From Micromonospora sp. WMMD812 (lineage in GTDB: Bacteria > Actinomycetota > Actinomycetes > Mycobacteriales > Micromonosporaceae): a stretch of 64,000 nt of DNA. Position 1 is the stretch's first letter; every line of letters starts with the position of its first letter. The notes under the pieces were generated by a model. That model did no database searches. It worked only from the letters and a program-made list of their open reading frames with translations, and was not told the DNA's origin. The stretch spans positions 5,475,001-5,539,000 of the forward strand of contig NZ_CP114904.1 in assembly GCF_027497215.1 (NCBI RefSeq), written 5' to 3'. Below are positions 1,559 to 56,062 of the stretch, piece by piece. The translations under genes and the position numbers were made by a program.

Positions 1559-1619
1559 GTTGATCATGAGGTCTGCGGCAGATCCGGAGATCGAAGACGC
1601 CGCAGACCTCATGATCAAC
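1559..1619 (+). repeat. 61-bp dispersed hairpin element, subfamily A (copy A1)
   Basis: Perfect inverted repeat: left arm 1559-1579, right arm 1599-1619 (21 bp each), 19-nt loop 1580-1598. Arms begin GTTGATCATGAGGT. The loop contains CGGAGATCGA, shared with the other A copies at 9729 (loop inverted) and 33642. It lies between the convergent molybdo-oxidoreductase gene and whiD. No T-tract follows the stem on either strand. Confidence 0.95.
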
Positions 1620-1664
1620 GGGATGGGGCAGGTGGGGGCGCGGTTCCGTGGGGTTGGGGTGCGC

Positions 1665-2048
1665 TCAGGCGACGTTGCGCTGGGCCGGCACGGTCGACTT
1701 GTGCGGGCGGCCCAGGCGGGCTTCCAGCCGGGCGACGTCGACCCGCGTCTGCCGCCGGTCGGCCAGGTCCTCCCAGCCGATGGCCAGCAGCCGCAGCCGC
1801 TCGGACTCGCTGAAGCCGCCCCAGACGCCGTACGGCTCGCGGACCGACAGCGCATGGGCGGCGCACTCGGCCCGCACCGGGCAGGCGCGGCAGACGGTCT
1901 TGGCGGCGGACTCGCGGCGCAACCGGGACGAGCCCCGCTCGCCGTCGGGGTGGAAGAACTGGGCGCTGTCGCGGCCCCGGCAGGCGCCGAGTCGCTGCCA
2001 GTCCCAGAGATCGACGATGGGTCCGGGCAGTCTACGTACGTTCGACAT
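1665..2048 (-). CDS. whiD: WhiB-family iron-sulfur transcription factor, WhiD/WhiB3 type
   Basis: 127-residue Wbl protein. Four cysteines typical of the family bind a 4Fe-4S cluster: C23 in LGACRGRD, then C53, C56 and C62 in TVCRACPVRAEC. The G(V/I)WGG turn (YGVWGG, about 73-78) and a basic C-terminal region follow. The opening LPGPIVDLWDWQRLGACRG and the FFHPDGERG stretch are characteristic of WhiD/WhiB3 rather than WhiB1 or WblA. Start ATG at 2048 has a strong GGAGGAGG Shine-Dalgarno 6-8 nt upstream. Family role: sporulation (WhiD in Streptomyces) or redox-linked regulation (WhiB3 in mycobacteria), probably acting with a principal sigma factor. It is divergent from the bldM-like gene, the arrangement seen in Streptomyces. 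Confidence 0.93.
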   Translation of the reverse strand: MSNVRRLPGPIVDLWDWQRLGACRGRDSAQFFHPDGERGSSRLRRESAAKTVCRACPVRAECAAHALSVREPYGVWGGFSESERLRLLAIGWEDLADRRQTRVDVARLEARLGRPHKSTVPAQRNVA

Positions 2049-2300
2049 CAGCACCCCTCCTCCCGCGCGGCACCGCGAGATACTTGTGGCCGGCTTACGG
2101 GCGGCGGGCCGCACAGGCGCACCGTTCCCGGCCTGGGTCTCCCGGTACCCGGGCTTTCCTGCGCTCACACGTCTTTGATCGAAAACGTCGGACAACTTGC
2201 GGCATATGCCCCATCTGTCGGAAAAGTTCGGAGGATTGCCGGGAACCTCCTCCCCAGCCGACCCCGTCATGGTCTGCTCGTTGGCGGAGAGGAGAGCACA

Positions 2301-3128
2301 GTGCGTAACGTTCTCGTGTGCGTCCGGACACCGCTCGCGGCGCAGCACCTGACCTCCGCGGCCGCCCGGTTGGGACTGTCCGCGGTCGTCCGTACCGCGG
2401 TCTCCGATCCCGAGGTGATGCTGCGTCTCGCCGAGCGCCAGCCCGACGTCATCCTGGCCGACACCGCCCTCACCCGGCCGGACAGCGCCGGTTTTGTCCG
2501 CCGGGTGCTGGCTCGCGCGCCACAGGCCGCGGTGCTGCTGTTCGGCGCGGAGGAGTCCGAGGCGGCCGCTGCCACCATCAGCGCCGGCGCCCGGGGTTTG
2601 ATCCAGGGCGCCGACCATGACCTGACCAGCGCGGTCGCCAAGGCGCTGCTGCTGCTCTCCGCCCCCGGCCGGGCGGCCCGGCACCGGGTCACCGACCCGG
2701 CCCGGAACACCGCGGCGGTAGGCGGACCGAACCGCCCCGCGCAGGCCGGCCGGCCCTCCGGAGAACCGGGCGCCGGCTGGACCGCAGGCACCGAGGAGGA
2801 GCCGGGCGGCGGACCGGCGATGGTGCCGGTGCAGCGCGGCGACGACGGACCCGAGACGGGCGGTGGCGAGGCCGAGGGAGCGCCACCGGACGGGCAGCGG
2901 CCGGCGGCGAACGTCCGGGCCGCCCGGGCGGCCATCGGGCTGACCGAGCGCGAGCTCCAGGTGCTGCTCGGCATGGCGGAGGGCAAGAGCAACGCCGAGA
3001 TCGGCCGTGAGCTGTTCGTCTCGGAGGACACCGTGAAGACGCACGCCCGCCGGCTGTTCCGCAAGCTCGGCGCCCGCGACCGGGCGCACGCGGTAGCCGC
3101 CGGCTTCCGCGCCGGCCTGGTGGCCTGA
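2301..3128 (+). CDS. bldM: BldM-like orphan response regulator with degenerate receiver and LuxR-type HTH
   Basis: 275 residues from GTG 2301, preceded by GGAGAGGAGAG. Residues 1-125 are a receiver fold. D54 is kept in VILADTAL, but the acidic pair that normally binds Mg2+ is replaced (VLVCVRTP, V8-R9 where BldM has DD) and the conserved Lys region reads GLIQGADH. Residues ~126-210 form a Pro/Gly/Ala-rich linker not found in Streptomyces BldM. Residues ~213-275 are a LuxR HTH (LTERELQVLLGMAEGKSNAE, SEDTVKTHARRLFRKLGA) very close to BldM. Synteny with whiD and guaB supports the assignment. BldM controls aerial development as a homodimer or as a heterodimer with WhiI, and phosphorylation is not thought to be required. 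WhiI is the main alternative name. Confidence 0.72.
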   Translation: MRNVLVCVRTPLAAQHLTSAAARLGLSAVVRTAVSDPEVMLRLAERQPDVILADTALTRPDSAGFVRRVLARAPQAAVLLFGAEESEAAAATISAGARGLIQGADHDLTSAVAKALLLLSAPGRAARHRVTDPARNTAAVGGPNRPAQAGRPSGEPGAGWTAGTEEEPGGGPAMVPVQRGDDGPETGGGEAEGAPPDGQRPAANVRAARAAIGLTERELQVLLGMAEGKSNAEIGRELFVSEDTVKTHARRLFRKLGARDRAHAVAAGFRAGLVA

Positions 3129-3229
3129 CGACTCCGACCGGCCCGGATACCTCCGGCCGGGCGGGCGGGCGTCGCACAGCGCGGGTGTCGGCGGGACCGC
3201 CCGTCTCGCGGGGTGCGCGCCGGCCGGGG

Positions 3230-3640
3230 TCACGTCCCGGTGCCGGGCTCCTCGTCGTTGCCCTCGGTCAGCGTGTCGTGCACGCCGTCGGCGTAGCCGC
3301 GCGCGTATTCCCAGGTGACGTAGTGGTCCGGGTCGGGGTCGTACGCCGGCTCGTGCACGCGGGGCCGACCCGAGCTGAGCAGGTGGCGCAGGTTGCCCCG
3401 GAGCAGGTCCCAGTCGAAGTAGTGCGGCTCCCGGCAGTCCTCGCACTCGATCACCAACCCGCGGACCCCGATGGGCGCCAGCAGCGCCTGGTAGATCTCC
3501 AGGTCGGCCAGGTCCTCCAGGACGTCCTGCCGCTCGACGTCGGTCAGCGGGTCGAGCGGTGCTTCGTCGCCCGGATCGTGCAGGCCCGCGGCCGGGTCGG
3601 CCGGGTCGCCGTTGAACGGGTCGATGGGCTCCTCGTGCAC
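3230..3640 (-). CDS. DUF5319 family protein
   Basis: 136-residue acidic protein starting at GTG 3640 (VHEEPIDPFNGDPADPAAG). The conserved DPFNGDPADP opening and the core VIECEDCREPHYFDWDLL identify the actinobacterial DUF5319 family, whose gene sits next to guaB in Streptomyces and Mycobacterium (Rv3412, from memory). The CEDC pair could bind a metal, but only one Cys pair is present. No membrane segment or signal peptide is visible. The frame is open further upstream, but that Arg-rich extension does not resemble the family. GGTGAGGGA lies almost adjacent to the GTG, so start spacing is unusually tight. Function is unknown. It is transcribed away from guaB, sharing a 266-bp divergent promoter region. 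Confidence 0.85.
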   Translation of the reverse strand: MHEEPIDPFNGDPADPAAGLHDPGDEAPLDPLTDVERQDVLEDLADLEIYQALLAPIGVRGLVIECEDCREPHYFDWDLLRGNLRHLLSSGRPRVHEPAYDPDPDHYVTWEYARGYADGVHDTLTEGNDEEPGTGT

Positions 3641-3816
3641 TCCCTCACCGTAGACCCAACGGCGCGGCGACGCCCGCCCCCGCGCGCGGGCCGGCCCGCC
3701 CGGCACCCGCGTGCCGGCCCGCCCGCGGCCGCACCCGCGCCGGCCCGTCGTCCCCGGCGCGCCGGGGACGCGGGTCACTCGGCGCGACGCGACGTGGGCT
3801 CGCCCCGCACGCTGGG

Positions 3817-3850
3817 TACGATGGGAGGAGCGCCGCGTGCGGCGCTCCTC
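3817..3850 (+). promoter_or_regulatory. guaB promoter -10 and 5'-UTR palindrome
   Basis: A -10-like TACGAT lies at 3817-3822. A 12-bp palindrome (left arm 3825-3836, GAGGAGCGCCGC; right arm 3839-3850; 2-bp centre) sits where transcription would begin. guaB starts 57 bp further on. It could be an operator at the start site or a 5'-end mRNA hairpin. No convincing -35 is visible. Confidence 0.4.
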
Positions 3851-3876
3851 CGGTGCCCACCGCGCCACCTCGCTGA

Positions 3877-5469
<1,593 letters not shown>

Positions 5470-5506
5470 CTCCCCCCACCACCCCCGAAGACACCTGGAG
5501 TGACCC

Positions 5507-6625
5507 ATGCGTGACGTGGTCGAGATCGGGTTGGGCAAGACCGCGCAGCGCGGTTACCACCTGGACGACATCGCGATCGTGCCGAGCCGCCGGACCCGGG
5601 ACGTCGACGACGTCTCGACCGCCTGGCAGCTCGACGCCTACCAGTTCGGCATCCCGTGCGTCGGGCATCCCTCCGACGCGACCATGAGCCCCGCCTCCGC
5701 CGTCCGGCTCGGCGAGCACGGCGGTCTGGGCGTGCTCAACGTCGAGGGGCTCTGGACCCGCTACGAGAACCCGACCAAGATCCTGGAGGAGCTGGCCGGC
5801 CTGGACGAGGGCGCCCGCGCCACCAAGCGCCTCCAGGAGGTGTACGCCGAGCCGATCCGTCCCGACCTGATCGCGGAGCGGGTCCGCGAGCTGCGAACCG
5901 GCGGCGGCACGGTGGCGGTGCGCGTCTCCCCGCAGCACACCCTGGCGCTCGCCCCGGTGATCCTGGACGCCGGCGTGGACATCCTGGTCATCCAGGGCAC
6001 GATCGTCTCCGCCGAGCACGTCTCGACCACCGACGAGCCGCTGAACCTCAAGGAGTTCATCGCCGACCTCGACCTGCCGGTCATCGTCGGCGGGTGCACC
6101 GACTACAAGACCGCGCTGCACCTGATGCGCACCGGCGCGGCCGGCGTCATCGTCGGCATCGGCGGCGACGAGTGGTCGACCACCGAGTCGGTGCTCGGCA
6201 TCCGGGTGCCGATGGCGACCGCGATCGCCGACGCGGCGGCGGCCCGCCGGGACTACCTGGACGAGACCGGCGGCCGGTACGTGCACCTGATCGCCGACGG
6301 CGACCTGCAGACCTCCGGCGACATCGCCAAGGCGCTCGGCTGCGGGGCGGACGCGGTGATGCTCGGCGAGCCGCTGTCGCTCTGCGCGGAGGCCCCGGCC
6401 GGTGGCGCCTGGTGGCACTCGGCGGCAAGCCACCCGTCGCTGCCCCGTGGCGCCTTCGAGGTCGCCAGCGAGCCGCTCGGCTCGATGGAGCAGCTCCTCT
6501 TCGGCCCGGCCGACGAGCCGGACGGCCAGCTCAACCTCTTCGGCGGGCTGCGCCGGGCGATGGCCAAGTGCGGCTACCGCGACCTCAAGGAGTTCCAGAA
6601 GGTCGGCCTGGTCCTGGACCGCTGA
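5507..6625 (+). CDS. guaB3: GuaB3-family IMP dehydrogenase-related protein
   Basis: 372 residues, ATG 5507 with GGAGTGACCC upstream. It begins MRDVVEIGLGKTAQRGYHLD, the signature of the actinobacterial GuaB3 family, and keeps an IMPDH-like barrel (GLGVLNVEGLWTRYENP, GADAVMLGEPL) but has no CBS domains. The loop that carries the catalytic Cys in IMPDH reads GIGGDEWSTTESVLG, without a cysteine, so it is not expected to act as a conventional IMPDH. M. tuberculosis keeps the same guaB2-guaB3 pair. Actual biochemical role is unsettled. It is probably co-transcribed with guaB. Confidence 0.92.
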   Translation: MRDVVEIGLGKTAQRGYHLDDIAIVPSRRTRDVDDVSTAWQLDAYQFGIPCVGHPSDATMSPASAVRLGEHGGLGVLNVEGLWTRYENPTKILEELAGLDEGARATKRLQEVYAEPIRPDLIAERVRELRTGGGTVAVRVSPQHTLALAPVILDAGVDILVIQGTIVSAEHVSTTDEPLNLKEFIADLDLPVIVGGCTDYKTALHLMRTGAAGVIVGIGGDEWSTTESVLGIRVPMATAIADAAAARRDYLDETGGRYVHLIADGDLQTSGDIAKALGCGADAVMLGEPLSLCAEAPAGGAWWHSAASHPSLPRGAFEVASEPLGSMEQLLFGPADEPDGQLNLFGGLRRAMAKCGYRDLKEFQKVGLVLDR

Positions 6626-6663
6626 CCTGCGCCAACCTGCTCCGATCGCACCGGCCGCGCCGC

Positions 6664-6669
6664 TAGGCT
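6664..6669 (+). promoter_or_regulatory. -10 element of a probable leaderless promoter (M1 peptidase gene)
   Basis: TAGGCT ends 6 bp before the GTG at 6676, so transcription should begin at or next to the start codon. No Shine-Dalgarno precedes that GTG. The same TAGGCT/TAGGGT arrangement recurs upstream of guaA and purN. Confidence 0.5.
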
Positions 6670-6675
6670 CGGCCG

Positions 6676-8085
6676 GTGCGACGTATCTCCCCACTGTTGA
6701 GGCCGGCGCTGGGCGTCGCCCTGGCGATCGCGCTCGCGCTCGGCGGCTGTACCCGGTCCGATGAGGAGGATGGCTTCCGCCCGGGCAGCACCGACCTCGG
6801 CGACCCGTACGTCCCCGGGCGTGGCAACGGCGGGTACGACGTCGGGCACTACGACCTCGACGTGCGGTACGACCCGGCTACCGACCGGTTGACCGGGCGC
6901 GCGGTGCTCACCGCGACGACCACCACCGGGTTGTCCCGGTTCAACCTGGACCTCGCCGGGCTGGAGGTCGACCGGGTGGTGGTCGACGGGGCCTCCGCCA
7001 CGCACCGGCGGACCGGCGACGAACTGGTGGTCACCCCGGCGCGCGGGCTGGCCCGGGGCGCCCGGTTCACGATCGAGGTGGCGTACGCCGGTGTGCCGGC
7101 CCCGGTCGTCGGGGGCGCGTTGGGCAGCGGCGGCTTCCTGCACACCGACGACGGCGCGATCGCGCTCGGCCAGCCCGACTCGGCGGCCACCTGGTTCCCG
7201 GTCAACGACCACCCGTCGGACAAGGCGACCTACGACCTCGCGGTGACCGTCCCCGAGGGGCTCGCCGCGTTGAGCAACGGCGCGCCGGGGCCGAAGCGCA
7301 GCGCCGACGGCTGGACCACCTGGCGGTGGTCCGAGCGGGCCCCGATGGCCAGCTACCTGACCACCCTGGTGATCGGCGACTACCAGGTGACCACCGGTAC
7401 GCACGCCGGCCGACCGATGGTGACCGCGGTGCCGGCGAGCGAGCCGGCGACCGGTGCCGCCGCCGCCTCGCTGGCCCGCACCGGGGCGATCGTGGACTTC
7501 CTGGCCAGCCGCTTCGGGCCGTACCCGTTCGAGTCGTACGGCGGGATCGTGGTCGCCGACCCGCGGATCGGGTACGCGCTGGAGACGCAGTCCCGGCCGG
7601 TGTACGGGCCGGCCTTCTTCTCCGCCGGCCGGCCCAACCCGTCGGTGGTGGCACACGAACTGGCCCACCAGTGGTTCGGTGACAGCGTCTCGCTGACCCG
7701 GTGGCGCGACATCTGGCTCAACGAGGGCTTCGCCACGTACGCCGAATGGCTCTGGGCGGAGCACGACGGCGGCCGCACCGCCCAGCGTGCCTTCGAGGCT
7801 CAGTACGCGACCACCGACTGGTCGGCGCCCGCCGTGGATCCGGGTCGGGAGGCGATGTTCGGCAACGCCGTCTACCGGCGGGGCGCGCTCGCCGTGCACG
7901 CGCTGCGCCGGACCGTCGGCGACGACACCTTCTTCCGCATCCTGCGCGAGTGGACGGTCGGGCGGCGGGACGGCAACGCCACGACCGACGACCTGATCAC
8001 CCACGCCGAACGGGTCGCCGGCCGGCAGCTGCGGTCGCTGTTCGACGCCTGGCTGGTGGGCGGCAGTGCACCCGCCCTGCCGTGA
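6676..8085 (+). CDS. M1 family zinc aminopeptidase-like lipoprotein (first of a tandem pair)
   Basis: 469 residues. Lipoprotein signal peptide with lipobox LALGGC (Cys about residue 25), so it is probably tethered outside the membrane. N-terminal M1 beta-saddle (YDLDVRYDPATDRLTGRAVL), then the gluzincin core: H327ELAH followed by 18 residues and Glu in IWLNEGFATY (HEXXH-X18-E). The exopeptidase GXMEN position reads GYALET, keeping the Glu. The transition-state Tyr is likely in AVYRRGALAVH. It probably trims peptides outside the membrane. It is closely similar to the next gene along its whole length, so the two arose by tandem duplication. The helical C-terminal domain of large M1 enzymes is absent, as usual for this short type. 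Confidence 0.93.
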   Translation: MRRISPLLRPALGVALAIALALGGCTRSDEEDGFRPGSTDLGDPYVPGRGNGGYDVGHYDLDVRYDPATDRLTGRAVLTATTTTGLSRFNLDLAGLEVDRVVVDGASATHRRTGDELVVTPARGLARGARFTIEVAYAGVPAPVVGGALGSGGFLHTDDGAIALGQPDSAATWFPVNDHPSDKATYDLAVTVPEGLAALSNGAPGPKRSADGWTTWRWSERAPMASYLTTLVIGDYQVTTGTHAGRPMVTAVPASEPATGAAAASLARTGAIVDFLASRFGPYPFESYGGIVVADPRIGYALETQSRPVYGPAFFSAGRPNPSVVAHELAHQWFGDSVSLTRWRDIWLNEGFATYAEWLWAEHDGGRTAQRAFEAQYATTDWSAPAVDPGREAMFGNAVYRRGALAVHALRRTVGDDTFFRILREWTVGRRDGNATTDDLITHAERVAGRQLRSLFDAWLVGGSAPALP

Positions 8086-8229
8086 CGGGCCCGTGATGGT
8101 CGCTCGGTAGGCTGCCGCGGACGACTCGGGCGACCCGTCGGTCGCGCCCGGTGGGCTGGGCCAGGTAGGCCCGGTGCGTCGAACGGACGGACGGGCGCGG
8201 ATCCCGTCGGCACAGGGGAGGGCGAAGCG

Positions 8230-9687
<1,458 letters not shown>

Positions 9688-9728
9688 CCGCGCCCGCCCG
9701 CCCGGCCCCGACCCCCGGGCCCAGCCCG

Positions 9729-9789
9729 GTTGATCATGAGGTTTGCGGCGACGTCGATCTCCGATCCCGCCGCAGACCTCATGATCATC
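9729..9789 (-). repeat. 61-bp dispersed hairpin element, subfamily A (copy A2, loop inverted)
   Basis: Left arm 9729-9749 and right arm 9769-9789, 19-nt loop 9750-9768. One mismatch and one G-U-compatible change separate the arms. The loop read on the minus strand contains CGGAGATCGA, so this copy is oriented opposite to A1 and A3. It lies between the convergent M1 peptidase and LCP genes, after a C-rich tract (9690-9728). Confidence 0.93.
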
Positions 9790-9809
9790 GGGGAAGGCCG
9801 GGGATGGGG

Positions 9810-10937: not shown

Positions 10938-11083
10938 TGTGCGACCACCTTCCACCCGTACTGGGACGACGCTTCGGCGACTGTGTCCGGTTGCCACCGC
11001 GGGCGCCGGGTGATCGGCCGGTGTGCATGATCGCGCGACGACCGCCTCTGGCGCGACAGCTACCGACCGGTAATGATGCGGTG

Positions 11084-12781
11084 ATGCGGTACGACGTGCT
11101 CGTCATCGGGTCCGGGTTCGGGGGCAGCGTCACCGCGCTGCGGCTGGCGGAGAAGGGCTACTCGGTCGGCGTCCTGGAGGCCGGGCGGCGCTTCGCCGAC
11201 GACGAGTTCCCGGAGACCTCGTGGCGGGTCCGGCGCTTCCTCTGGGCGCCCCGGCTCGGCTGCTACGGCATCCAGCGCATCACGCTGCTGCGGGCGGCCG
11301 ACCGCCGGGCCGGCGGCGGGGTGCTGGTGCTCTCCGGCACCGGGGTGGGCGGCGGCTCGCTGGTGTACGCGAACACGCTCTACGAGCCGCTGCCCGCGTT
11401 CTACACCGACCCGCAGTGGCGGGACATCACCGACTGGCGCGACGAACTGGCCCGCCACTACGACCAGGCGAAGCGGATGCTCGGCGTCACCACGTACCCG
11501 CGGGACACCGGCGCGGACCGGGCGATGCGGGGGGTGGCCGGGCGGATGGGGGTCGCGCACACCTTCCACCCCACCCCGGTCGGGGTGCACATCGGCCGGC
11601 CCGGCGAGCGGGTCGCCGACCCGTACTTCGGCGGCGCCGGCCCGGAGCGCACCGGCTGCACGCACTGCGGCTCCTGCATGACCGGCTGCCGGCACGGTGC
11701 CAAGAACACGCTGGTCAAGAACTACCTCTGGCTCGCCGAGCGGCTCGGCGCGCGGGTGCACCCGCTGACCACGGTGACCGCCGTACGCCCCGCCGCGGAC
11801 GGCGGGTACGCGGTGCACACCGAGCGGACCGGCGCCTGGCTGCGCCGGCGGCGCCAGGTGTTCCACGCCGACCAGGTGGTCTTCGCCGCCGGGGCGCTCG
11901 GCACCCAGCGGCTGCTGCACGAGATGCGGGCGACCGGCGCGCTGCCCGCGCTGTCGCCCCGGCTGGGCGAGCTGACCCGGACCAATTCCGAGGCGATCCT
12001 CGGCGCCTCGGTGCCCCGACAGCGGGCCCGCGCCGAGCGGCTCGACCTCACCGAGGGGGTGGCCATCACCAGCTCGTTCCACCCCGACCCGCAGACCCAC
12101 ATCGAGCCCGTCCGGTACGGGCGGGGCTCCAACGCCATGGGGCTGCTCCAGTCGCTGCTGGTCGACGGCGGGCCGCACCGGCTCCGCCGGTGGGTGGCCA
12201 CACTGTTGCGGCAGCCGCGGCTGGCGGCGCAGATGCTCTCCGTCCGCGGCTGGTCGGAGCGGACCGTCATCGCCCTGGTCATGCAGTCGGTGGACAACTC
12301 GCTGACCACCCGGCTCGGACGGGGCCCGCTCGGGCGCCGGTTGGTGTCCGGCCCGGGCCACGGCGTGCCCAACCCCACCTGGATCCCCGCCGGCAACCAG
12401 GCCGCCCGGCTGCTGGCCGAGGAGATCGACGGCGTGCCGGGCGGCGCGCTGACCGAGCCGTTCAACATCCCGATGACCGCGCACATCCTCGGCGGAGCGG
12501 TGATCGGGGCCGGACCCGAGGACGGCGTGATCGACCCGTACCACCGGGTCTTCGGGCACCCCGGGCTGCATGTGGTGGACGGGGCGGCGGTCTCGGCGAA
12601 CCTCGGGGTGAACCCGTCGCTGACCATCACCGCCCAGGCCGAGCGAGCCATGTCCCTCTGGCCCAACAAGGGCGAGACCGACCCACGCCCGCCCCTCGGC
12701 ACCCCCTACCGCCGCCTGTCCCCGGTCCCGCCCAAAACCCCCGCCGTCCCCGCCCACGCCCCCGCAGCGTTGCGCCCGTGA
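11084..12781 (+). CDS. choD: GMC-family FAD oxidoreductase, cholesterol-oxidase-like (ChoD type)
   Basis: 565 residues from ATG 11084 (GTG 11081 is equally possible). N-terminal FAD-binding motif VIGSGFGGSVTALRLAEKGY, then GTGVGGGSLVYANTLY and a C-terminal GMC signature (GLHVVDGAAVSANLGVNPSL). It also carries a Cys-rich motif CTHCGSCMTGCRHGAKNT (C-x2-C-x2-C-x3-C), seen in this ChoD-like subgroup and reminiscent of an iron-sulfur site. The neighbouring guaB-guaB3 order matches Rv3409c (choD) of M. tuberculosis. A true steroid substrate is not demonstrated for this branch, so read the symbol as orthology rather than proven activity. It is divergent from the LCP gene. Confidence 0.8.
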   Translation: MRYDVLVIGSGFGGSVTALRLAEKGYSVGVLEAGRRFADDEFPETSWRVRRFLWAPRLGCYGIQRITLLRAADRRAGGGVLVLSGTGVGGGSLVYANTLYEPLPAFYTDPQWRDITDWRDELARHYDQAKRMLGVTTYPRDTGADRAMRGVAGRMGVAHTFHPTPVGVHIGRPGERVADPYFGGAGPERTGCTHCGSCMTGCRHGAKNTLVKNYLWLAERLGARVHPLTTVTAVRPAADGGYAVHTERTGAWLRRRRQVFHADQVVFAAGALGTQRLLHEMRATGALPALSPRLGELTRTNSEAILGASVPRQRARAERLDLTEGVAITSSFHPDPQTHIEPVRYGRGSNAMGLLQSLLVDGGPHRLRRWVATLLRQPRLAAQMLSVRGWSERTVIALVMQSVDNSLTTRLGRGPLGRRLVSGPGHGVPNPTWIPAGNQAARLLAEEIDGVPGGALTEPFNIPMTAHILGGAVIGAGPEDGVIDPYHRVFGHPGLHVVDGAAVSANLGVNPSLTITAQAERAMSLWPNKGETDPRPPLGTPYRRLSPVPPKTPAVPAHAPAALRP

Positions 12782-12794
12782 TCCGGTCACCCCG

Positions 12795-12866
12795 GCGATC
12801 TTGCACTTCCGGCAGTCGTTCTGCGGCACAGGTCCCGTTCTGTCGGGGCGGAAAGTGCAAGATCGC
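12795..12866. repeat. Long-range inverted repeat of a third type (GCGATCTTGCACTT arms)
   Basis: Left arm 12795-12808 and right arm 12853-12866 (14 bp perfect), 44-nt interior with small self-complementary pieces. Arms and geometry differ from the 61-bp A and B elements. It lies between two co-directional genes (choD-like and guaA) and ends 52 bp before the guaA promoter. Only one copy is present in this window. Confidence 0.8.
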
Positions 12867-12918
12867 GGAAAGTGGGCGTGGTGCGGCGGGGCGGGTCAGG
12901 CCCGGCGGTGACTGTCGG

Positions 12919-12924: not shown

Positions 12925-12932
12925 TTCTGCAC

Positions 12933-14486: not shown

Positions 14487-14493
14487 CCGTGGC

Positions 14494-16017: not shown

Positions 16018-16078
16018 GTTGATCATGAAGTTATTGTCGGGACACGCCGACACGCACGGCGATAACTTCATGATCGAC
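16018..16078 (+). repeat. 61-bp dispersed hairpin element, subfamily B (copy B1)
   Basis: Left arm 16018-16038 and right arm 16058-16078 (all three differences G-U compatible), 19-nt loop 16039-16057 containing GACACGCCGA. Arms begin GTTGATCATGAAGTT. This is the only one of six copies placed between co-directional genes (the two Nudix genes). Confidence 0.93.
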
Positions 16079-33498: not shown

Positions 33499-33508
33499 TC
33501 CACTCCGG

Positions 33509-33554
33509 AACCGCCTGCCGACGTCACCGCGACGCCGGCAGGCGGTTCTGTCTT
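33509..33554 (+). terminator. Intrinsic terminator of oligopeptide operon 1
   Basis: 12-bp stem AACCGCCTGCCG (33509-33520) with 33536-33547, followed by CTGTCTT. Confidence 0.75.
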
Positions 33555-33641: not shown

Positions 33642-33702
33642 GTTGATCATGAGGTTGACGGCGGATTCGGAGATCGAAAGTGCCGTCAACCTCATGATCA
33701 AC
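33642..33702 (+). repeat. 61-bp dispersed hairpin element, subfamily A (copy A3)
   Basis: Left arm 33642-33662 and right arm 33682-33702, perfect 21-bp pairing, 19-nt loop 33663-33681 containing CGGAGATCGA. It lies between convergent oligopeptide operon 1 and aroQ, downstream of an independent intrinsic terminator. Confidence 0.95.
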
Positions 33703-44195: not shown

Positions 44196-44209
44196 CGATC
44201 ACCGGCCGA

Positions 44210-44821: not shown

Positions 44822-44847
44822 TCGACGAGGCTCCTTGGCTGTGTCCG

Positions 44848-45141: not shown

Positions 45142-45334
45142 GGGGGCTCCTCACTCGCCGACACGACTCGCGTGTCGGATCATCGACTCTCGGGGGTGTG
45201 GGCCGGGCGCGCGCGCCGGGCCCGAGCGACCGGCAGCGTACCGGTTCGGCGCCAGCCTGGCTGTCAGCCGCGCGCGTCGATCCGACGTCGTCCGTCCCGA
45301 CCTGCCCGGACGCGGCCCTTCCCCGCCTGCCCGA

Positions 45335-45340
45335 TAGGGT
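45335..45340 (+). promoter_or_regulatory. purN -10 element, probable leaderless transcript
   Basis: TAGGGT ends 6 bp before the purN GTG, with no Shine-Dalgarno between. Confidence 0.5.
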
Positions 45341-45346
45341 GAGCCG

Positions 45347-47532: not shown

Positions 47533-47584
47533 CCAACCGCGCCCCGGCCGTCCCCCGCGCCCCGGGCCGTCCCGCGCCTCACGG

Positions 47585-47645
47585 GCTGATCATGAAGTTG
47601 TTGCCGCGACACGCCGATACGCGCGGCAACAACTTCATGATCGAC
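47585..47645 (+). repeat. 61-bp dispersed hairpin element, subfamily B (copy B2)
   Basis: Left arm 47585-47605 and right arm 47625-47645, 19-nt loop 47606-47624 containing GACACGCCGA. It lies between convergent purH and oligopeptide operon 2, after a C-rich stretch (47536-47580) and with no other hairpin between it and purH. Confidence 0.93.
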
Positions 47646-47686
47646 GGGCCCGGGAGCGCCGGGTCGCGACGGGGTCGGCCTCCGCG

Positions 47687-49742: not shown

Positions 49743-49748
49743 GAGGGA

Positions 49749-50705
49749 TCACCGCAGCTTCGGGTCGAAGGCGTCACGGATCGCGTCGCCGAGCATGATG
49801 AACGCCAGCACGGTCAGCGCGAGGAAGGCCGACGGGACGATCAGCGGGGTCGCGGCCTCCCGCATGTGGACCCGGCCGGTGTCGATGTCCTGGCCCCACG
49901 AGATGGTCTCCTGGCTCAGGCCGATGCCGAGGAACGAGAGGGTCGCCTCGGCGGCGATGAACGAACCGAGCGCGATGGTCAGCACCACGATGGCGGGGGC
50001 GAGCGCGTTCGGCAGGATGTGCCGCAGCATGATCCGGCCGTTGCCGGCGCCGAGCATCCGGGCCGCCGCGACGTAGTCCTGCTCCTTGGCGGTGATCACC
50101 GAGGAGCGGACCACCCGGGCGGCCGTGGTCCAGCCGAGGAGGGCCAGGACCAGCACGACCGCGCCGAGCCGGAAGTTCGGGCTCTCCGTGCCGACCCGCT
50201 TGAGCAGGACGATCGCGGCGAGCAGCAGCGGGATGCCGAGCACGATGTCGATCACCCGGGAGAGCACGGCGTCGACCCATCCGCCGAAGTAACCGGCGAG
50301 CATGCCGACGATCAGCGCGAGCACGCCGGTGAACAGCGCGGAGAGCGCGCCGACGAGCAGCGAGGCCTGCGTGCCGTAGACCGCCCGGGAGAAGGTGTCG
50401 CAGCCCTGGAAGCCGTACCCGAAGATGGCCCCACCGGACGGCCCGGCGTGCTGCCGGGAGAGCAGGCAGTCCTTCGGGTCGTTCGCGGTGAACAGGCCGG
50501 GGGCGACCGCCATCAGGGTGACGATCAGCACCAGCGTGAGCGAGACCCAGAAGATCGGGTTGCGGCGCAGGTCGCGCCAGGCGTCACCGGCCAGGCTGCG
50601 CGGCTTGCCGGGGGTGCCGGGCTGGTTCGGGTTGCCGGGCTCACCCGAGGGGCCACGGCGCGCGGCCTGGTTCTCGGTGGCCGCCACCGTCTCAAAATCA
50701 CTCAT
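49749..50705 (-). CDS. Oligopeptide ABC transporter permease, DppC/OppC type, operon 2
   Basis: 318 residues from ATG 50705, whose ATGA overlaps the micro-ORF stop. Cytoplasmic Pro/Gly-rich N-terminus, then LAGDAWRDLRRNPIFWVSLT, six helices, and the EAA loop (ARMLGAGNGRIMLRHILPNA); it ends FDPKLR. A Cys pair (DPKDCLL, FQGCDTF) lies in the large periplasmic loop between helices 1 and 2. This Cys pair is absent from the operon 1 paralogue and could form an extracellular disulfide. Confidence 0.95.
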   Translation of the reverse strand: MSDFETVAATENQAARRGPSGEPGNPNQPGTPGKPRSLAGDAWRDLRRNPIFWVSLTLVLIVTLMAVAPGLFTANDPKDCLLSRQHAGPSGGAIFGYGFQGCDTFSRAVYGTQASLLVGALSALFTGVLALIVGMLAGYFGGWVDAVLSRVIDIVLGIPLLLAAIVLLKRVGTESPNFRLGAVVLVLALLGWTTAARVVRSSVITAKEQDYVAAARMLGAGNGRIMLRHILPNALAPAIVVLTIALGSFIAAEATLSFLGIGLSQETISWGQDIDTGRVHMREAATPLIVPSAFLALTVLAFIMLGDAIRDAFDPKLR

Positions 50706-50785
50706 GCCCGCACCTCGCTCCGCTCGGTGCCGGCCTGAGCGTCCAAGCACGCTGCGTTGATGATTCGTTCGCTGCGCTCACTCAT
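50702..50785 (-). CDS. 27-codon micro-ORF bridging the two permease genes, operon 2
   Basis: ATG 50785 overlaps the end of the OppB-type gene by 8 bp, and its TGA (50702-50704) overlaps the ATG of the OppC-type gene. The peptide begins MSERSERII and ends GTERSEVRA; length and both overlaps are identical to 30386-30469. The two differ mainly in the middle third. No function is known. Confidence 0.5.
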   Translation of the reverse strand: MSERSERIINAACLDAQAGTERSEVRA

Positions 50786-51716
50786 AGCGGATCCTCGGGT
50801 CGAGTACGGCGTACAGGACATCCACCACCAGGTTCGAGACCAGGTAGACGACGACGAGGACGCTGACGATTCCCACCACCAGGGGGCCGTCCTCGGTGCG
50901 GATGCCGCGGAAGAGGTTGAAGCCCACGCCGGGGATGTTGAAGACGCCCTCGGTGATGATCGCGCCGCTCATCAGGTTGCCCAGCTCGACGCCGAGGAAG
51001 GTCACCACCGGGATGAGCGAGTTGCGCAGCACGTGGACGCTGACGATGCGCCGTTTGACCAGGCCCTTGGACCGGGCGGTGCGGACGTAGTCGGCGCGTA
51101 GGTTCTCCGCCACCGAGGTGCGGGTGAGTCGCAGCGCCGTCGCCAGCGAGAGCGAGCCGAGCACGATGCCGGGCAGCAGCAGCGCGTAGAAGCTGGGCTC
51201 CGCGCCCGCGGTGGGTGGGAAGAGCTGCCACTTGACGCCGAAGAAGAACTGCGCGAGCGGCGCCAGCACGATGGTCGGAATGCCCAGCACCAGCAGGGTC
51301 AGCACCAGGGTCGCGTTGTCGAAGATGCCGGCCCGGCGGATGCCGGCGATCACGCCGGCGGTGACGCCGAAGATGATGGCCACGGCGAGCGCGATGAGGG
51401 CCAGCTTGACCGTGGTCGGCCAGGCCTGCTCGAGGATGTCGCCGATCTGCCGGCCGGTGAGCGACTGGCCCAGGTCACCCTGGACGAGGTTCTTCACGTA
51501 GTCGAAGTAGCGGTAGAAGAAGCCACCGACGCCGGTCTGGTCGAGGTGGAACTTCTCCGTCAGGTATGCCCGCTGGGCCGGTGTCACCGGCCGCTCGCCG
51601 GCGAGGGCCTGGATCGGGTCGCCCTGCCCGGCGAACATCAGCGCGTAGACGATCAGCGTGGTCCCGAAGAACGCCAGGACCATCTGCAGGAGGCGCCGCA
51701 GGATGTAGCGGAACAT
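50778..51716 (-). CDS. Oligopeptide ABC transporter permease, DppB/OppB type, operon 2
   Basis: 312 residues from ATG 51716 (GGAAAGT immediately upstream; the frame is open 13 codons further). Starts MFRYILRRLLQMVLAFFGTT, six helices, and EAA loop RTARSKGLVKRRIVSVHVLR; ends LDPRIRYE as in operon 1. The segment AERPVTPAQRAYLTEKFHLD after helix 1 is typical of the family. Confidence 0.95.
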   Translation of the reverse strand: MFRYILRRLLQMVLAFFGTTLIVYALMFAGQGDPIQALAGERPVTPAQRAYLTEKFHLDQTGVGGFFYRYFDYVKNLVQGDLGQSLTGRQIGDILEQAWPTTVKLALIALAVAIIFGVTAGVIAGIRRAGIFDNATLVLTLLVLGIPTIVLAPLAQFFFGVKWQLFPPTAGAEPSFYALLLPGIVLGSLSLATALRLTRTSVAENLRADYVRTARSKGLVKRRIVSVHVLRNSLIPVVTFLGVELGNLMSGAIITEGVFNIPGVGFNLFRGIRTEDGPLVVGIVSVLVVVYLVSNLVVDVLYAVLDPRIRYE

Positions 51717-51866
51717 ACTTTCCAGTCTCTCCGGAAAAATGCGAATGGGTCGCAAGACGACGTCTCTGGTCGTACCGGAAAAATCCGTGACCTGGTCGTC
51801 GGTCCCCCGGCGGGGCCGCGCGGAGACCGGCCCGGACGATCAGCGACCGGGTCGGTCCGCGTGCGC

Positions 51867-51900
51867 CCGGGCCACCCGGGAAAGTCCCCGGGTGGCCCGG
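51867..51900 (-). terminator. Intra-operon terminator-like hairpin between binding protein and permease genes, operon 2
   Basis: Perfect 14-bp stem CCGGGCCACCCGGG / CCCGGGTGGCCCGG, 6-nt loop, 12 bp past the binding-protein stop. It is positional counterpart of 29341-29379, although the sequences are unrelated. Confidence 0.75.
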
Positions 51901-51912
51901 ACCGCGGTCAGC

Positions 51913-53517
51913 TCAGCTGGCCGCCTCGATCTTGACCAGGTTGACGCGCTGGAACAGGTCCATCTCGACGTTCTTGACCTTGGTCGAGTGGCCGAACACG
52001 TTCTCGCCGAAGCGGAGCGGGATCACCGGCATGTCCTTGGCCAGGATGTCCTCGGCCTGCTGGTACTTCTTGATCGCCTCTTCCTGGGTGGGAGCGGCGG
52101 AGCCCTCCTTCACCAGCTTGTCGAACTCCGGGTTGCTGTACCCGTAGTAGTTCGACGAGCCGTTGGTGCTGTACAGCGGGCCCAGGTAGTCCTCCATGGA
52201 CGGGTAGTCCATGACCCAACCCATCCGGAACAGGCCGACCGGCTGCTTCTTCTCGACCTTGGTGAGCAGGTCGGCGAACTTCGGCTCGGCCGAGCCGACG
52301 ACCTCGACGCCCAGGTTGGCCTTCAGCTGGTTGGCGGTCGCGTCGACCCAGTCCTTGTGACCGCCGTCGCCGTTGTAGGAGATGACGATCTTCGACGGGC
52401 CGCCCGCGGCCTGGTACAGCTTCTTGGCCTCGGTCGGGTTGAACTCACCCGCCGCGCCCGCGGTGTTCTCCCGGTAACCCGGCAGCACCGGCGAGACGAA
52501 CGAGCGGGCCGACTGCTGCGAGCCCTTGAAGATCGACTTGGTGATCTCGTCCCGGTCGATCGCCATCGAGATCGCCTTGCGCACGTCCGGGTTGCTGAAG
52601 TTCTTGTCGAACGTCGGGAACGCCAGGAACTGGAACGACGACATCGGGCTGGTCTGGTACCGGTCGCCCAGGTCGGTCGGCGCCGTGCTCAGGCTCTCGG
52701 TCGGGATCGTCGGCAGCACGTCCAGGTTGTCACCCAGCACGTCCGCGTACGCGGCGGTGAGCTGCTGGTAGACCCGGAACTCGATGTTCTTCACCTTGGG
52801 CTTCTCGCCCGGGTAGGCGTCGTACCGCTCGACGTCGATCTTGCTGTCGTGCTGCCAGGTGCCCTTCATCTTGAACGGGCCCTGGCCGATCGGCGCCTGC
52901 TCGTAGGAGTCCTTGAGCACGCCCGGGGCCGAGAACGCGGCCTCCGGCAGCGGGTAGAAGGCGTTGTAGCCGAGCATCGTCTCGAAGTCGATGTACGGCG
53001 CGGAGAGCGTCACCTGGAAGGTCAGGTCGTCGACCTTCTCCAGGCCGGACATCTCCTTGGCCTTCGGCTTGTCGCCCTGGAGGTCCTGGTAGCCGGCGAT
53101 CTTCTCGAAGAAGTAGCTGGCGCCCTGACCGTTGGGCGCGTACGCGCCGTAGTTCCAGGCGTTGATGTAGTCGTCGGACGTGACCTTCTCGCCGTTGTGG
53201 AAGGTGAAGCCGTCCTTGAGCTTGATCGTCCAGACCTTGTGGTCGGTCGACGTCACCGAGTCGGCCGCGACCTCGTACGGCTTGTTCTGCGCGTCGTAGT
53301 CGACGAGCGGGGCGAACAGGCCGGCGAGCACCTGCGAGCCGGACGTCTCGGTGGTGTTCGTCGGAACCAGGTGCTGCGGCTCGGCGATCTGGATACTGAC
53401 CGCCGCATTGGGGTCGCTGCTGCCGGATCCGCCGTCGCCGCCGCTGCCGCAGGCCGCGAGGCCCAGGGTCACCGCGAGCGGGAGGGCGGTCCAGGCGGCG
53501 AGCCTACGAACTCGCAT
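51913..53517 (-). CDS. Oligopeptide/dipeptide ABC transporter substrate-binding lipoprotein (SBP_bac_5), operon 2
   Basis: 534 residues, ATG 53517 with GAGGAGG 5 nt upstream. Lipobox LGLAAC. Family 5 binding fold: IQIAEPQHLVPTNTTETSGS, VWTIKLKDGFTFHNGEKVTS, and AISMAIDRDEITKSIFKGSQ; the mature N-terminus is Gly/Ser-rich. It is a clear paralogue of 27686-29326 but divergent in the ligand-contact lobes and lacks its NCTACAYN Cys pair, so the two transporters may take different peptides. First gene of operon 2. Confidence 0.93.
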   Translation of the reverse strand: MRVRRLAAWTALPLAVTLGLAACGSGGDGGSGSSDPNAAVSIQIAEPQHLVPTNTTETSGSQVLAGLFAPLVDYDAQNKPYEVAADSVTSTDHKVWTIKLKDGFTFHNGEKVTSDDYINAWNYGAYAPNGQGASYFFEKIAGYQDLQGDKPKAKEMSGLEKVDDLTFQVTLSAPYIDFETMLGYNAFYPLPEAAFSAPGVLKDSYEQAPIGQGPFKMKGTWQHDSKIDVERYDAYPGEKPKVKNIEFRVYQQLTAAYADVLGDNLDVLPTIPTESLSTAPTDLGDRYQTSPMSSFQFLAFPTFDKNFSNPDVRKAISMAIDRDEITKSIFKGSQQSARSFVSPVLPGYRENTAGAAGEFNPTEAKKLYQAAGGPSKIVISYNGDGGHKDWVDATANQLKANLGVEVVGSAEPKFADLLTKVEKKQPVGLFRMGWVMDYPSMEDYLGPLYSTNGSSNYYGYSNPEFDKLVKEGSAAPTQEEAIKKYQQAEDILAKDMPVIPLRFGENVFGHSTKVKNVEMDLFQRVNLVKIEAAS

Positions 53518-53967
53518 GGAGCCTCCTCATCTCCTCACGCTGCGCAGTCAGGCCCGGCGTTGGGTAACGCTGCGCAACGATCGGCAACGGTAGGTCGGAT
53601 GGTTCGCTTCGGCAACGAGCCGATTGCGACTCCGTAACGTTGCCCGCCGTCCCCCCTTGCCGGGAGGCGTTCGCCCTGCTAGCGAGGAGCCGCCTAATGG
53701 GCCCTGAAGTGCCATTTTGCTTCGGCCGGCCGGTGCGGTCCGTGCCCGTTCGGGCCGGCCCGGTGCTACTCGGACCGGTCGTCCGGGTAATGGGGGCGGC
53801 TGTCGCCCTGTCCGTTCCCGCCGTGATGGAATCCACTTTCCAACACGCAGAGTGACTTACGACACGTAACAGATCGTTATCAAATCGCGGTACCGGAGGC
53901 CCTCCTCCGGACTCCCGGGAACCGGGTCGTCCGAACGGCGGAGGCCCGGCGTGAGACGATTCAGTTC
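53518..53967. other. Divergent intergenic region between oligopeptide operon 2 and folD
   Basis: 450 bp. It holds the operon 2 promoter (53587-53615) and repeated CGTTGCCGA/TCGGCAACG sites. An AT-richer patch (53825-53890) probably contains the folD promoter, but no hexamer pair could be fixed. A short open frame at 53640-53855 lacks coding character. Confidence 0.5.
53587..53615 (-). promoter_or_regulatory. Promoter of oligopeptide operon 2
   Basis: -35 TTGCCG (53615-53610), 17-bp spacer, -10 TACCGT (53592-53587). A CGTTGCCGA copy overlaps the -35 and another lies just downstream (about 53589-53581), as expected of operator sites. Confidence 0.5.
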
Positions 53968-54828
53968 GTGACGGCGACGCTTCTGGACGGCAAGGCGACC
54001 GCGGCCGATATCAAGGACGAGCTGCGGGCGCGGGTCAAGGCACTGGCCGAACGCGGTATCACTCCCGGTCTCGGCACCGTCCTGGTCGGTTCCGACCCGG
54101 GGTCGCAGGCGTACGTCAACGGCAAGCACCGCGACTGCGCGGAGGTGGGCATCGCCTCGATCCGCCGCGAGCTGCCGGCCGACGCGACCCAGCAGCAGGT
54201 CGACGACGTGCTCGCCGAGCTGAACGCGGACCCGGCCTGCCACGGCTACATCGTCCAGCTGCCGCTCCCGGCCCACCTGGACACCCAGCGCGTGCTGGAG
54301 CTGATCGACCCGACGAAGGACGCCGACGGCCTGCACCCGGTCAACCTGGGCCGGCTGGTGCTCGGCTACCCCGGCCCGCTGCCGTGCACTCCGCGGGGCA
54401 TCGTCGAGCTGCTCCGCCGGCACGACGTGGCCCTGCGCGGCGCCACGGTGGCGGTGGTCGGCCGGGGCAACACGGTCGGCCGTCCGCTCGGCCTGCTGCT
54501 GACCCGGCGCAGCGAGAACGCGACCGTGACGCTCTGCCACACCGGGACCCTCGACCTCGCCTCGCACACCCGGGCTGCCGACATCGTGATCGTGGCGGCC
54601 GGCGTACCGGGCCTGCTCACCGCCGACATGATCACCCCGGGCGCGGTGGTGGTTGACGTCGGCATCACCCGCGTCGTCGGGTCGGACGGCAAGGGTCGCT
54701 ACACCGGTGACGTCGACGCGGGCGTGGCCGAGGTGGCCGGCGCCCTGGTGCCGATGCCCGGCGGCGTCGGGCCGATGACCCGCGCCATGCTGCTGACCAA
54801 CGTCGTGGAACGCGCGGAGGAGGGCTGA
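53968..54828 (+). CDS. folD: Methylenetetrahydrofolate dehydrogenase / methenyltetrahydrofolate cyclohydrolase
   Basis: 286 residues from GTG 53968; no Shine-Dalgarno, so possibly leaderless. It interconverts 5,10-methylene-THF and 10-formyl-THF with NADP+, supplying PurN and PurH. Motifs: [20 protein letters not shown] with the catalytic Lys, [12 protein letters not shown], the Rossmann loop [16 protein letters not shown], and [13 protein letters not shown]. Complete and of normal size. The same gene lies between purH and mdh in S. coelicolor. Confidence 0.97.
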
Positions 54829-54921
54829 GCCGCCCGGTCACCGCATCCGGCAGCCGCCGGCTCCCGCCCTGAGCGGTCGCGTCATAACCGTCCGCCCCTG
54901 GCCGGATCGGTGCCAGGATGA

Positions 54922-54953
54922 CTGATACGGTCCGGAAAACCGACTGGTATCAG
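54922..54953. promoter_or_regulatory. Operator-like inverted repeat at the mdh promoter
   Basis: CTGATAC (54922-54928) and GTATCAG (54947-54953), 25 bp centre to centre. The left half overlaps a -10-like TACGGT (54926-54931), and the right half abuts the mdh Shine-Dalgarno (AGGGAG). Likely a repressor site with half-sites on one DNA face. Confidence 0.4.
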
Positions 54954-54967
54954 GGAGTGGGACGACC

Positions 54968-55918
54968 ATGGGTAAGAAGGTCACTGTCGTCGGGGCCGGC
55001 TTCTACGGCTCCACCACCGCACAGCGCCTGGCCGAGTACGACGTCTTCGACACCGTTGTGATCACCGACATCGTGGAGGGCAAGCCGGCGGGCCTCGCGC
55101 TGGACCTCAACCAGTCGCGCCCGATCGAGGGCTTCGAGACGAAGGTCGTCGGCGTCACCACCGGCCCGAACGGCGAGGGCTACGAGGCGATCGAGGGCTC
55201 CGACGTCGTGGTCATCACCGCCGGTCTGCCTCGCAAGCCGGGCATGAGCCGGATGGACCTGCTGGAGACGAACGCCAAGATCGTCCGTCAGGTCTCCGAG
55301 AACGTCGCCAAGTACGCCCCCAACGCGGTCGTCATCGTGGTCTCCAACCCGCTGGACGAGATGACCGCGCTGGCCCAGCTCGCCACGCAGTTCCCGAAGA
55401 ACCGGGTGCTCGGCCAGGCCGGCATGCTCGACACCGCCCGGTTCACCAACTTCGTGGCCGAGGCGCTGAACGTGCCGGTGAAGTCGGTCAAGACCCTCAC
55501 CCTCGGCTCGCACGGCGACACGATGGTGCCGGTGCCGTCGAAGAGCACCGTCAACGGCAAGCCGCTGCGCGAGGTCATGCCCGACGCGCAGATCGAGGAG
55601 CTGGTGGTCAAGACCCGTAACGGTGGCGCCGAGGTGGTCGCGTTGCTGAAGACCGGTTCGGCGTACTACGCCCCGTCCGCCGCCGCCGCCAAGATGGCGA
55701 AGGCCGTCGCCGAGGACTCGGGCGAGGTCATGCCGGTCTGCGCCTGGGTCGACGGCCAGTACGGCATCTCCGGCGTCTACCTCGGCGTCGAGGCCCAGAT
55801 CGGCGCCGAGGGCGTCAAGCGGGTCGTCGAGACCGACCTGGACGCCGACGAGCTGGCCAGCCTCAAGGAGGCCGCCGAGGCCGTCCGGGCCAAGCAGGCC
55901 GACGTCGCCAACATGTGA
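54968..55918 (+). CDS. mdh: Malate dehydrogenase (LDH-like type)
   Basis: 316 residues, ATG 54968. NAD-dependent oxidation of malate to oxaloacetate in the TCA cycle. Rossmann motif VTVVGAGFYGSTTAQRLAEY, TAGLPRKPGMSRMDLLETNA with the mobile-loop arginines, VVSNPLDEMT, catalytic His in TLGSHGDTMVP. It belongs to the lactate-dehydrogenase-like MDH group by length and motif spacing, not to the longer cytosolic-type MDH of Streptomyces. icd lies 1.2 kb downstream and sucCD 13 kb upstream. Confidence 0.94.
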   Translation: MGKKVTVVGAGFYGSTTAQRLAEYDVFDTVVITDIVEGKPAGLALDLNQSRPIEGFETKVVGVTTGPNGEGYEAIEGSDVVVITAGLPRKPGMSRMDLLETNAKIVRQVSENVAKYAPNAVVIVVSNPLDEMTALAQLATQFPKNRVLGQAGMLDTARFTNFVAEALNVPVKSVKTLTLGSHGDTMVPVPSKSTVNGKPLREVMPDAQIEELVVKTRNGGAEVVALLKTGSAYYAPSAAAAKMAKAVAEDSGEVMPVCAWVDGQYGISGVYLGVEAQIGAEGVKRVVETDLDADELASLKEAAEAVRAKQADVANM

Positions 55919-55935
55919 GCTGAGCACCACCTCGC

Positions 55936-55970
55936 GGAGGGGTACGCCGGCACCACCGGCGTACCCCTCC
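55936..55970 (+). terminator. Terminator of mdh
   Basis: Perfect 15-bp stem GGAGGGGTACGCCGG (55936-55950) with 55956-55970, 5-nt loop, then CGCGTCTCCT. It precedes the separate 61-bp element at 56002. Confidence 0.78.
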
Positions 55971-56001
55971 CGCGTCTCCTCCCCATCCGGGCGTCCACCT
56001 C

Positions 56002-56062
56002 GTCGATCATGAAGTTATTGCCGTCCGCGCCGGCGTGTCGCAGCAGTAACTTCATGATCGAC
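56002..56062 (-). repeat. 61-bp dispersed hairpin element, subfamily B (copy B3, loop inverted)
   Basis: Left arm 56002-56022 and right arm 56042-56062 with two mismatched positions, 19-nt loop 56023-56041. Read on the minus strand, the loop contains GACACGCCGG, so this copy is inverted relative to B1 and B2. It lies between convergent mdh and the metallo-hydrolase gene, after an independent mdh terminator. Confidence 0.92.

Follow-up and report, generated by a model that had tools for sequence, protein, structure and literature searches.

Micromonospora sp. WMMD812 carries a family of short palindromic elements, six 61-nt copies of which lie in the 64,000-nt stretch analysed here (the window, G000:C1:5475001-5539000 of a single contig of 7,134,996 bp). 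On balance, we favour the reading that these are non-autonomous dispersed hairpins, resembling paired repetitive extragenic palindromes (REPINs, from REP sequences) or miniature inverted-repeat transposable elements (MITEs), which are kept at gene ends as two-way transcript-end elements. Each unit is palindromic, almost constant in length within its family (60, 61 or 73-76 bp), highly conserved in its outer arms and specific to its family in the core. Sequence comparison among relatives indicates that lineages differ in the families they carry and in copy numbers, that single junctions gain, lose and exchange copies, and that the unit inverts in place. Copying and flipping would proceed either through a hairpin in single-stranded form or through template switching during replication, presumably with an enzyme other than a recognisable Y1 or REP-associated tyrosine transposase (RAYT). 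The U-less hairpin, preceded on both strands by C-rich, G-poor RNA, would end or cap transcripts from either side, most plausibly through Rho-dependent termination with the hairpin shielding the 3' end, and copies would be kept just behind stop codons for this reason.

The six window hairpins fold at -31.5 to -44.2 kcal/mol, and the pattern TGATCATGARGT, with up to two mismatches, matches the window 20 times against a mean of 1.87 across 100 shuffles, none of which reached 20. A preliminary description of the window had placed all six 61-nt copies at the correct coordinates, divided them correctly into two subfamilies and recognised the inverted loops at 9.7 and 56.0 kb. Subfamily A is 61 bp long with arms GTTGATCATGAGGTTTGCGGC and core CGGAGATCGA, and subfamily B likewise 61 bp with arms GTTGATCATGAAGTTGTTGCC and core CGACACGCCG. 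Absent from that inventory were a 74-bp relative at 12794-12867 and a third main subfamily, C (GTTGATCAAGAGGTTTGCGTC), which is mostly 60 bp long; families D and E are rarer relatives of 73-75 bp. Elements end in GTTGATC...GATCAAC, and no fixed flanking tetranucleotide (a GTAG or CGTC tag) is visible by eye across 79 copies.

The preliminary description staked its idea of a copied unit on further copies in the genome, and these were found: 52 exact copies, with 0 for the reversed-pattern control, and 57 at a fixed 55-nt spacing with up to three mismatches. A covariance model built from 20 copies gave 149 strand matches at E <=1 and at least 79 places at E <1e-3, a lower bound because no more than 150 candidates were scored; the two weak matches at E 0.04 and 0.06 were dropped. 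A wider arm pattern finds 98 exact copies in this genome, and re-detection allowing for families D and E in the window and 65 own-genome loci yields 83 copies (56 of 61 bp, 19 of 60 bp and 8 others). The origin-proximal half of the chromosome, nearest dnaA, holds 64 of the 79 copies. Copies are concentrated around 5.46-5.75 Mb, and the window has seven elements where about one per 64 kb is expected from the 98 exact matches.

That arm changes preserve pairing, as previously suggested, is borne out by a 20-sequence alignment in which 96.2% of stem cells are paired; its covariation score is unmatched by 500 shuffles and in part represents the subfamily difference, since the alignment mixes A and B. 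For the accompanying idea of a structured RNA the signs are mixed: stem pairing is kept, but 23 tandem copies have loops in either orientation with respect to transcription, and the mismatches of own-genome tandem copies show no strand preference for G-U over A-C. Rfam gave 0 matches at gathering score when the window was searched.

The location of the copies is tied to gene 3' ends. Genes were called by our own codon-usage caller, and exclusion of the 6 of 79 copies that overlap a called gene leaves 73 placeable copies, of which 42 are convergent, 23 tandem and 8 divergent. The convergent share compares with 44 of 347 other junctions (Fisher p ~4e-15), a background drawn from element neighbourhoods, since elements were the anchor points for the own-genome stretches. 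The median distance of convergent copies from the stop codon is 34.5 nt, with 78 of 84 gene ends no more than 100 nt away, and the same distance holds for 22 of 23 gene ends at tandem copies. Among 31 re-detected tandem copies, 29 are closer to the upstream stop than to the next start (medians 27 and 94 nt), and at one locus (L051) a copy stands behind the stop of each of three consecutive genes.

Base composition flips from C to G across the elements. The stretch from stop codon to element (112 untranslated regions) has C 0.588 and G 0.230, as compared to C 0.406 and G 0.401 at convergent and C 0.408 and G 0.366 at tandem control junctions. Read on the same strand, about 60 nt per side have on average an excess of C ahead of the element and of G past it, at convergent, both kinds of tandem and divergent junctions; families A, B and C all show the flip, as do 19 copies of other genera. 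All seven window elements are biased in this direction; for instance, positions 9689-9728 (+), preceding the copy at 9.7 kb, contain 26 C and 12 G in 40 nt, and the 40 nt past that copy 6 C and 23 G. The bias reaches into coding sequence, with C 0.515 and G 0.230 over the final 30 coding nt where a gene has an element (89 genes) and 0.394 and 0.359 in 233 other genes; it covers the last 60-90 coding nt and fades by 90-120 nt. No flip is seen at 65 other 3'-end hairpins of the same stretches, a control set in which L066 is in fact a copy of family D.

Rho-dependent termination with a hairpin guarding the 3' end is expected to leave C-rich, G-poor RNA and then a hairpin without U-tract. The former trait of Rho terminators is present in the stop-to-element stretches, and four or more T in the 9 nt downstream occur in 0 of 117 stretches. 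Taken together, these features of the letters lean towards a transcript-end role for the elements, and Rho is a possible, less firmly indicated, termination partner. At several junctions C minus G over the last 60 coding nt is higher in genes with than without the element: M1 peptidase 0.206 (n=3) versus 0.121 (48), LytR 0.194 (3) versus 0.115 (47), g09 0.263 (5) versus 0.144 (27), g05 0.054 (4) versus -0.010 (44) and g02 0.083 (1) versus -0.011 (41).

Two other readings of the flanks were rejected. As a palindromic extension, their complementarity is barely above that of swapped pairs (9.83 versus 9.35, sd 0.195, in the own genome and 9.61 versus 8.96, sd 0.197, in 80 loci, both above all 20 swaps; 9.84 versus 8.65, sd 0.516, in other genera, with some swaps higher), and the flip is mainly one of composition. 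Of 83 downstream flanks, 38 contain G-quadruplex motifs, where same-base shuffles would give 27.2, an excess that composition mostly explains.

The element is very probably copied as a discrete unit. In genome G187 two copies have identical 55-nt cores and just 83 bp of their 4-kb surroundings can be aligned, and a pair in G020 has identical 54-nt cores in flanks that are 84% similar and match in the orientation opposite to the cores. At the junction of the AICARFT and ABC-transporter genes, the element of L246 is the reverse complement of that in L251 across all 61 bp, outer asymmetric bases included, and the downstream 60 nt (85% identical) are unchanged in orientation; loops are therefore inverted at one same site, beyond inversion between copies. 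The inverted core fits better in six orientation-crossing pairs and worse in four non-crossing pairs, a comparison that covers five loci and does not include L242. A replication template switch across the palindrome, aided by the complementary flank composition, would do this; a recombinase or re-insertion would do this equally well and is not separable from a template switch. Two family C pairs (G000:C1:1946298/6089382 and 1019137/1257889; L023, L070, L019, L020) share their immediate flanks within long spacers and are therefore parts of larger duplications.

The REP- or MITE-like unit of the preliminary description thus survives in its general form, through the genome-wide family, identical cores in unrelated flanks, presence or absence at given sites and inversion in place. 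A classical MITE is not supported, as target duplications (direct repeats of 4-9 nt, tested with boundaries shifted by -3 to +3) are not in excess in 83 copies, although old insertions could have lost them. Nor was the REP-associated tyrosine transposase that it envisaged detected: PF01797 (Y1/RAYT) has 0 matches in this genome (G000) and in the five highest-copy genomes of the sample (G018, G019, G021, G027 and G031), and its matches in 15 of 61 genomes bear no relation to copy number, on which grounds a RAYT/REP route was set aside. Because the elements fail the RAYT and target-duplication tests, we class them as members of neither REPINs nor MITEs, though they work like one. Integron attC sites were considered and likewise set aside.

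Comparison of the same junctions across species reveals turnover. From 567 M1 peptidase relatives, the best 80 were taken as named loci, and within these M. costi is closest by the M1 peptidase protein (85%). The copy at 16018-16078 (+, subfamily B) lies in tandem between two co-directional NUDIX genes, and an element, assigned by neighbouring genes and flanks, is found at this site in 31 of the best 80 loci. Across 30 aligned sequences, including that of the window, 93.3% of stem cells are paired and the outer arms are nearly invariant; among the 31 loci the shortest element has 46 nt and the longest 61 nt, and by eye the flanks look unalignable. The loop conservation claimed from the six copies does not extend to this orthologous site, where the loop varies in sequence and length and the outer arms stay.

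The copy at 9729-9789 (-, subfamily A with its core on the minus strand) separates the convergent Peptidase_M1 (+) and LytR_cpsA_psr (-) genes, the stops of which are at most 10 bp apart in 31 Micromonospora loci. Where the window has subfamily A, M. avicenniae has an A/C hybrid and its sister strain a 5-bp gap, M. costi and strain MH99 have family E, and several others have unrelated hairpins. The 74-bp relative at 12794-12867 (+, family E, arms GGCGATCTTGCACTT and AAGTGCAAGATCGCG) is tandem, located about 12 nt past the stop of gene 11081-12781 (+) and followed by GMP synthase (+). At this junction E or D occurs in eight loci; spacers measure 166-178 bp in L096, L097, L110 and L112 and 89-90 bp in their element-less relatives L100, L101, L107, L113, L115 and L117. 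E is also found in the deep-branching L167, so that loss is as possible as gain.

At 56002-56062 (-, subfamily B with its core on the minus strand), the element lies between convergent genes for malate dehydrogenase (+, with a hairpin of its own) and a metallo-beta-lactamase-fold (MBL) protein (-). By script this site has an element in 15 of 30 loci, which by eye are seven A-like, three B and five C and mostly lie past the hairpin belonging to the gene. Outside these 15, L203 has a C copy undetected by script, L190 resembles a leftover half, L195 is truncated, L217 has a loopless hairpin, and the others are empty or at a contig end. In L204 and L209 the flanks at this site consist of long simple repeats of inverted sense, C-rich ahead of the element, e.g. 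(CCCA)n, and (GGGT)n or (GGGCGA)n past it. The copy at 47585-47645 (+, subfamily B), between the convergent AICARFT/IMPCHase (+) and ABC-transporter (-) genes, has counterparts in 9 of 30 loci by script, in both orientations among species, and two further elements with GGGG/CCCC arms are visible by eye in L243 and L245.

The remaining window copies are both convergent and of subfamily A. That at 1559-1619 (+) is separated by 17 nt from the stop codon of the molybdopterin-oxidoreductase gene (+) preceding it and by 45 nt from that of a WhiB-like gene (-); that at 33642-33702 (+) follows an ABC-transporter gene (+), which has its own hairpin at 33508-33548, with a chorismate mutase-like gene (-) ending 33 nt away. 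The preliminary description was right that five of six copies are convergent and that two lie beyond ordinary hairpins; the latter are the GC-rich ones at 33508-33548 and behind the malate dehydrogenase gene, and the sixth copy is that between the NUDIX genes.

Other hairpins were also encountered. In Phytohabitans flavus (L145:19109-19170) a 62-bp hairpin has different arms (GTTGATCAGGGACTTTG) and the core GCGACACGCCG, the same as in subfamily B. A 71-bp gene-end hairpin at L074:5126-5196, with a 16-nt palindrome TTGAGCGATCGCTCAA in each arm, falls outside the family, and a GGAAGGGCCCCTTCTTAAC-like hairpin recurs at junctions of several species (L116, L124, L126, L136, L144 and L261).

Within the samples searched, the hairpin superfamily is essentially confined to Micromonosporaceae. 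The A/B-type pattern is present in 31 of 36 sampled congeners with 1 to 83 matches each, and several genomes resemble G012, which has 0 A/B-type and 82 wider-pattern matches. The wider pattern occurs in 75 of 200 Micromonosporaceae genomes and 16 of 44 genera (reversed-pattern controls 0), at 0-175 copies per genome and unevenly also inside genera, as in g66 (175, 99 and 16 versus 0, 0, 1 and 1) and g56 (35, 43 and 49 versus 0, 0, 0 and 1). The 61-bp form with core CGACACGCCG occurs in genus g38, and g66 has its own 70-nt core, or 76 bp with the outer bases. G020, the closest of the genomes compared by malate dehydrogenase (98%), has mostly family C and this genome more A and B, so that different families were amplified in different lineages. 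In a phylum-wide sample, 37 of 396 genomes match a simple pattern, with the exception of this genome at the chance level of one or two matches each, and by eye the matches listed lack arm complementarity past the fixed bases. The viral_contigs collection has 0 matches to the A/B pattern. In G055, from family f5 of the same order, five matches of 40-50 bp (e.g. C62:9801-9849 and C100:22789-22837) have GATCATGAG ends and other inner arms, and most are clear hairpins; these are perhaps a related family outside Micromonosporaceae.

Several observations weigh against a role as transcript-end element. Tandem copies are as strongly G-rich downstream as they are C-rich upstream, which is more than a one-way end signal requires. 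Tandem stems of the own genome have 14 G-U to 12 A-C mismatches and no strand preference; the 68 to 26 counted in tandem copies of the 80 loci is not independent, as these are mostly NUDIX-site orthologs, and was not used as support for an RNA role. C minus G over the last 60 coding nt is no higher with the element in the NUD1 gene (0.228, n=23, with and 0.261, n=6, without) or in malate dehydrogenase (0.024 and 0.05, 15 each), and M1 and LytR orthologs without an element are already mildly C-rich. C-rich gene ends could therefore be a target preference of the element, indistinguishable here from later adaptation. At the malate dehydrogenase site and at 33642 an ordinary hairpin precedes the element, so that termination of that gene does not need it, and few or no copies in many species make any function dispensable. 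The main rival, which we regard as rather unlikely, is that these are selfish hairpins without host benefit, piling up behind genes because insertion elsewhere is harmful or because they target the C-to-G flip. Patchy copy numbers down to 0, random loop orientation, positions beyond hairpins already present and a bias independent of gene direction would all follow. Less easily accommodated are the outer arms at the NUDIX site, which are almost invariant over the genus where the rest varies and stem changes are compensated, and the 29 of 31 tandem copies that hug the stop codon, long spacers included.

Nearly invariant outer arms, fixed spacing and the 64 of 79 origin-proximal copies would also suit duplex binding sites for a chromosome-organising or regulatory protein, with the arms as recognition sequence and the fixed length as spacing. 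This is improbable, however, as stem changes are compensated (e.g. the GGGG/CCCC arms in L243 and L245), families differ both in arm sequence and in length, which spans 60 to 76 bp, and location tracks gene 3' ends. More improbable still is a known transposase mobilising classical MITEs or REPs, be it Y1/RAYT or the DDE enzyme of an insertion sequence with the same ends; inverted arms, a short core and intergenic dispersal are as expected for these, but PF01797 is unmatched in the six genomes named above, target duplications are not in excess, and the 66 own-genome stretches read, to which the scan for single arms was confined, contain a single arm without partner, located at a degenerate copy. 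Independent origin of ordinary intrinsic terminators at numerous gene ends would account for the 3'-end location and the stable stems; this is hardly credible, being contradicted by the shared cores, with arms and exact lengths also common to the copies, by the 0 of 117 downstream stretches with four or more T and by the 65 other hairpins without composition flip. Dispersed hairpins kept at gene ends as two-way transcript-end elements remain our favoured reading. A fuller version is offered tentatively: a portable, RAYT-independent two-way transcript-end module, probably spreading through a single-stranded hairpin, landing or persisting close behind stop codons and flipping in place, around which flanking gene ends may evolve C-rich, Rho-friendly RNA, with the genus rewiring its gene ends by swapping families at the same junctions.

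If true, part of an actinomycete family equips its gene ends with a mobile hairpin, and some mechanism there must be copying and inverting 61-bp hairpins. The C-to-G flip, centred on each copy and extending into coding sequence, offers a clear way to decide whether a mobile hairpin is drawn to Rho-type end signals or whether these arise around it. Genome annotation would gain a defined repeat class, with 98 copies here and up to 175 in a relative (exact pattern).

The comparison with known systems draws on excerpts of the cited papers. Searched by arm letters and topic, such excerpts of the open-access literature, with subscription papers outside the scope, hold no description of the Micromonospora hairpin family. 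REP and REPIN sequences with RAYT transposases consist of inverted arms around a short spacer, forming dispersed intergenic hairpins that spread as a doublet unit (PMC3116915, PMC3733652), and a term search of PMC3733652 for actinobacterial names returned no match. The Micromonospora element is likewise an inverted doublet hairpin, dispersed and intergenic. In contrast to REPINs, its genome has no RAYT/Y1 match, its arms (15-21 nt) are of other sequence without a fixed GTAG or CGTC end tag, its length is fixed across genera, and each copy is surrounded by a C-to-G flip. The stem-loop repeats Ype, Efa and Bor favour gene 3' ends, with a proposed effect on mRNA stability or termination, in surveys of about 40 genomes; the high-GC Gram-positives mentioned in their excerpts are Corynebacterium and Mycobacterium, with Micromonospora absent (PMC1590033, PMC2267715). 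The Micromonospora hairpins share with these their repetition and 3'-end location, but in-place inversion and composition flip are, as far as those descriptions go, reported for the Micromonospora hairpins only. Bacterial interspersed mosaic elements, as bidirectional terminators, and 'mobile attenuators' can be recruited by the host (PMC2965389); as described, they are enterobacterial or bacillar and linked to REP or insertion sequences, a link not found for the Micromonospora hairpins. In Streptomyces clavuligerus, transcript ends at stable hairpins lacking a U-tract are read as I-shaped terminators or as hairpin-protected Rho-dependent ends (PMC8269248). Both are stable hairpins without U-tract in GC-rich actinomycetes, but the S. 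clavuligerus ends are described, in the part of that work consulted, as a class of mechanism, whereas the Micromonospora hairpins constitute a repeated sequence family.

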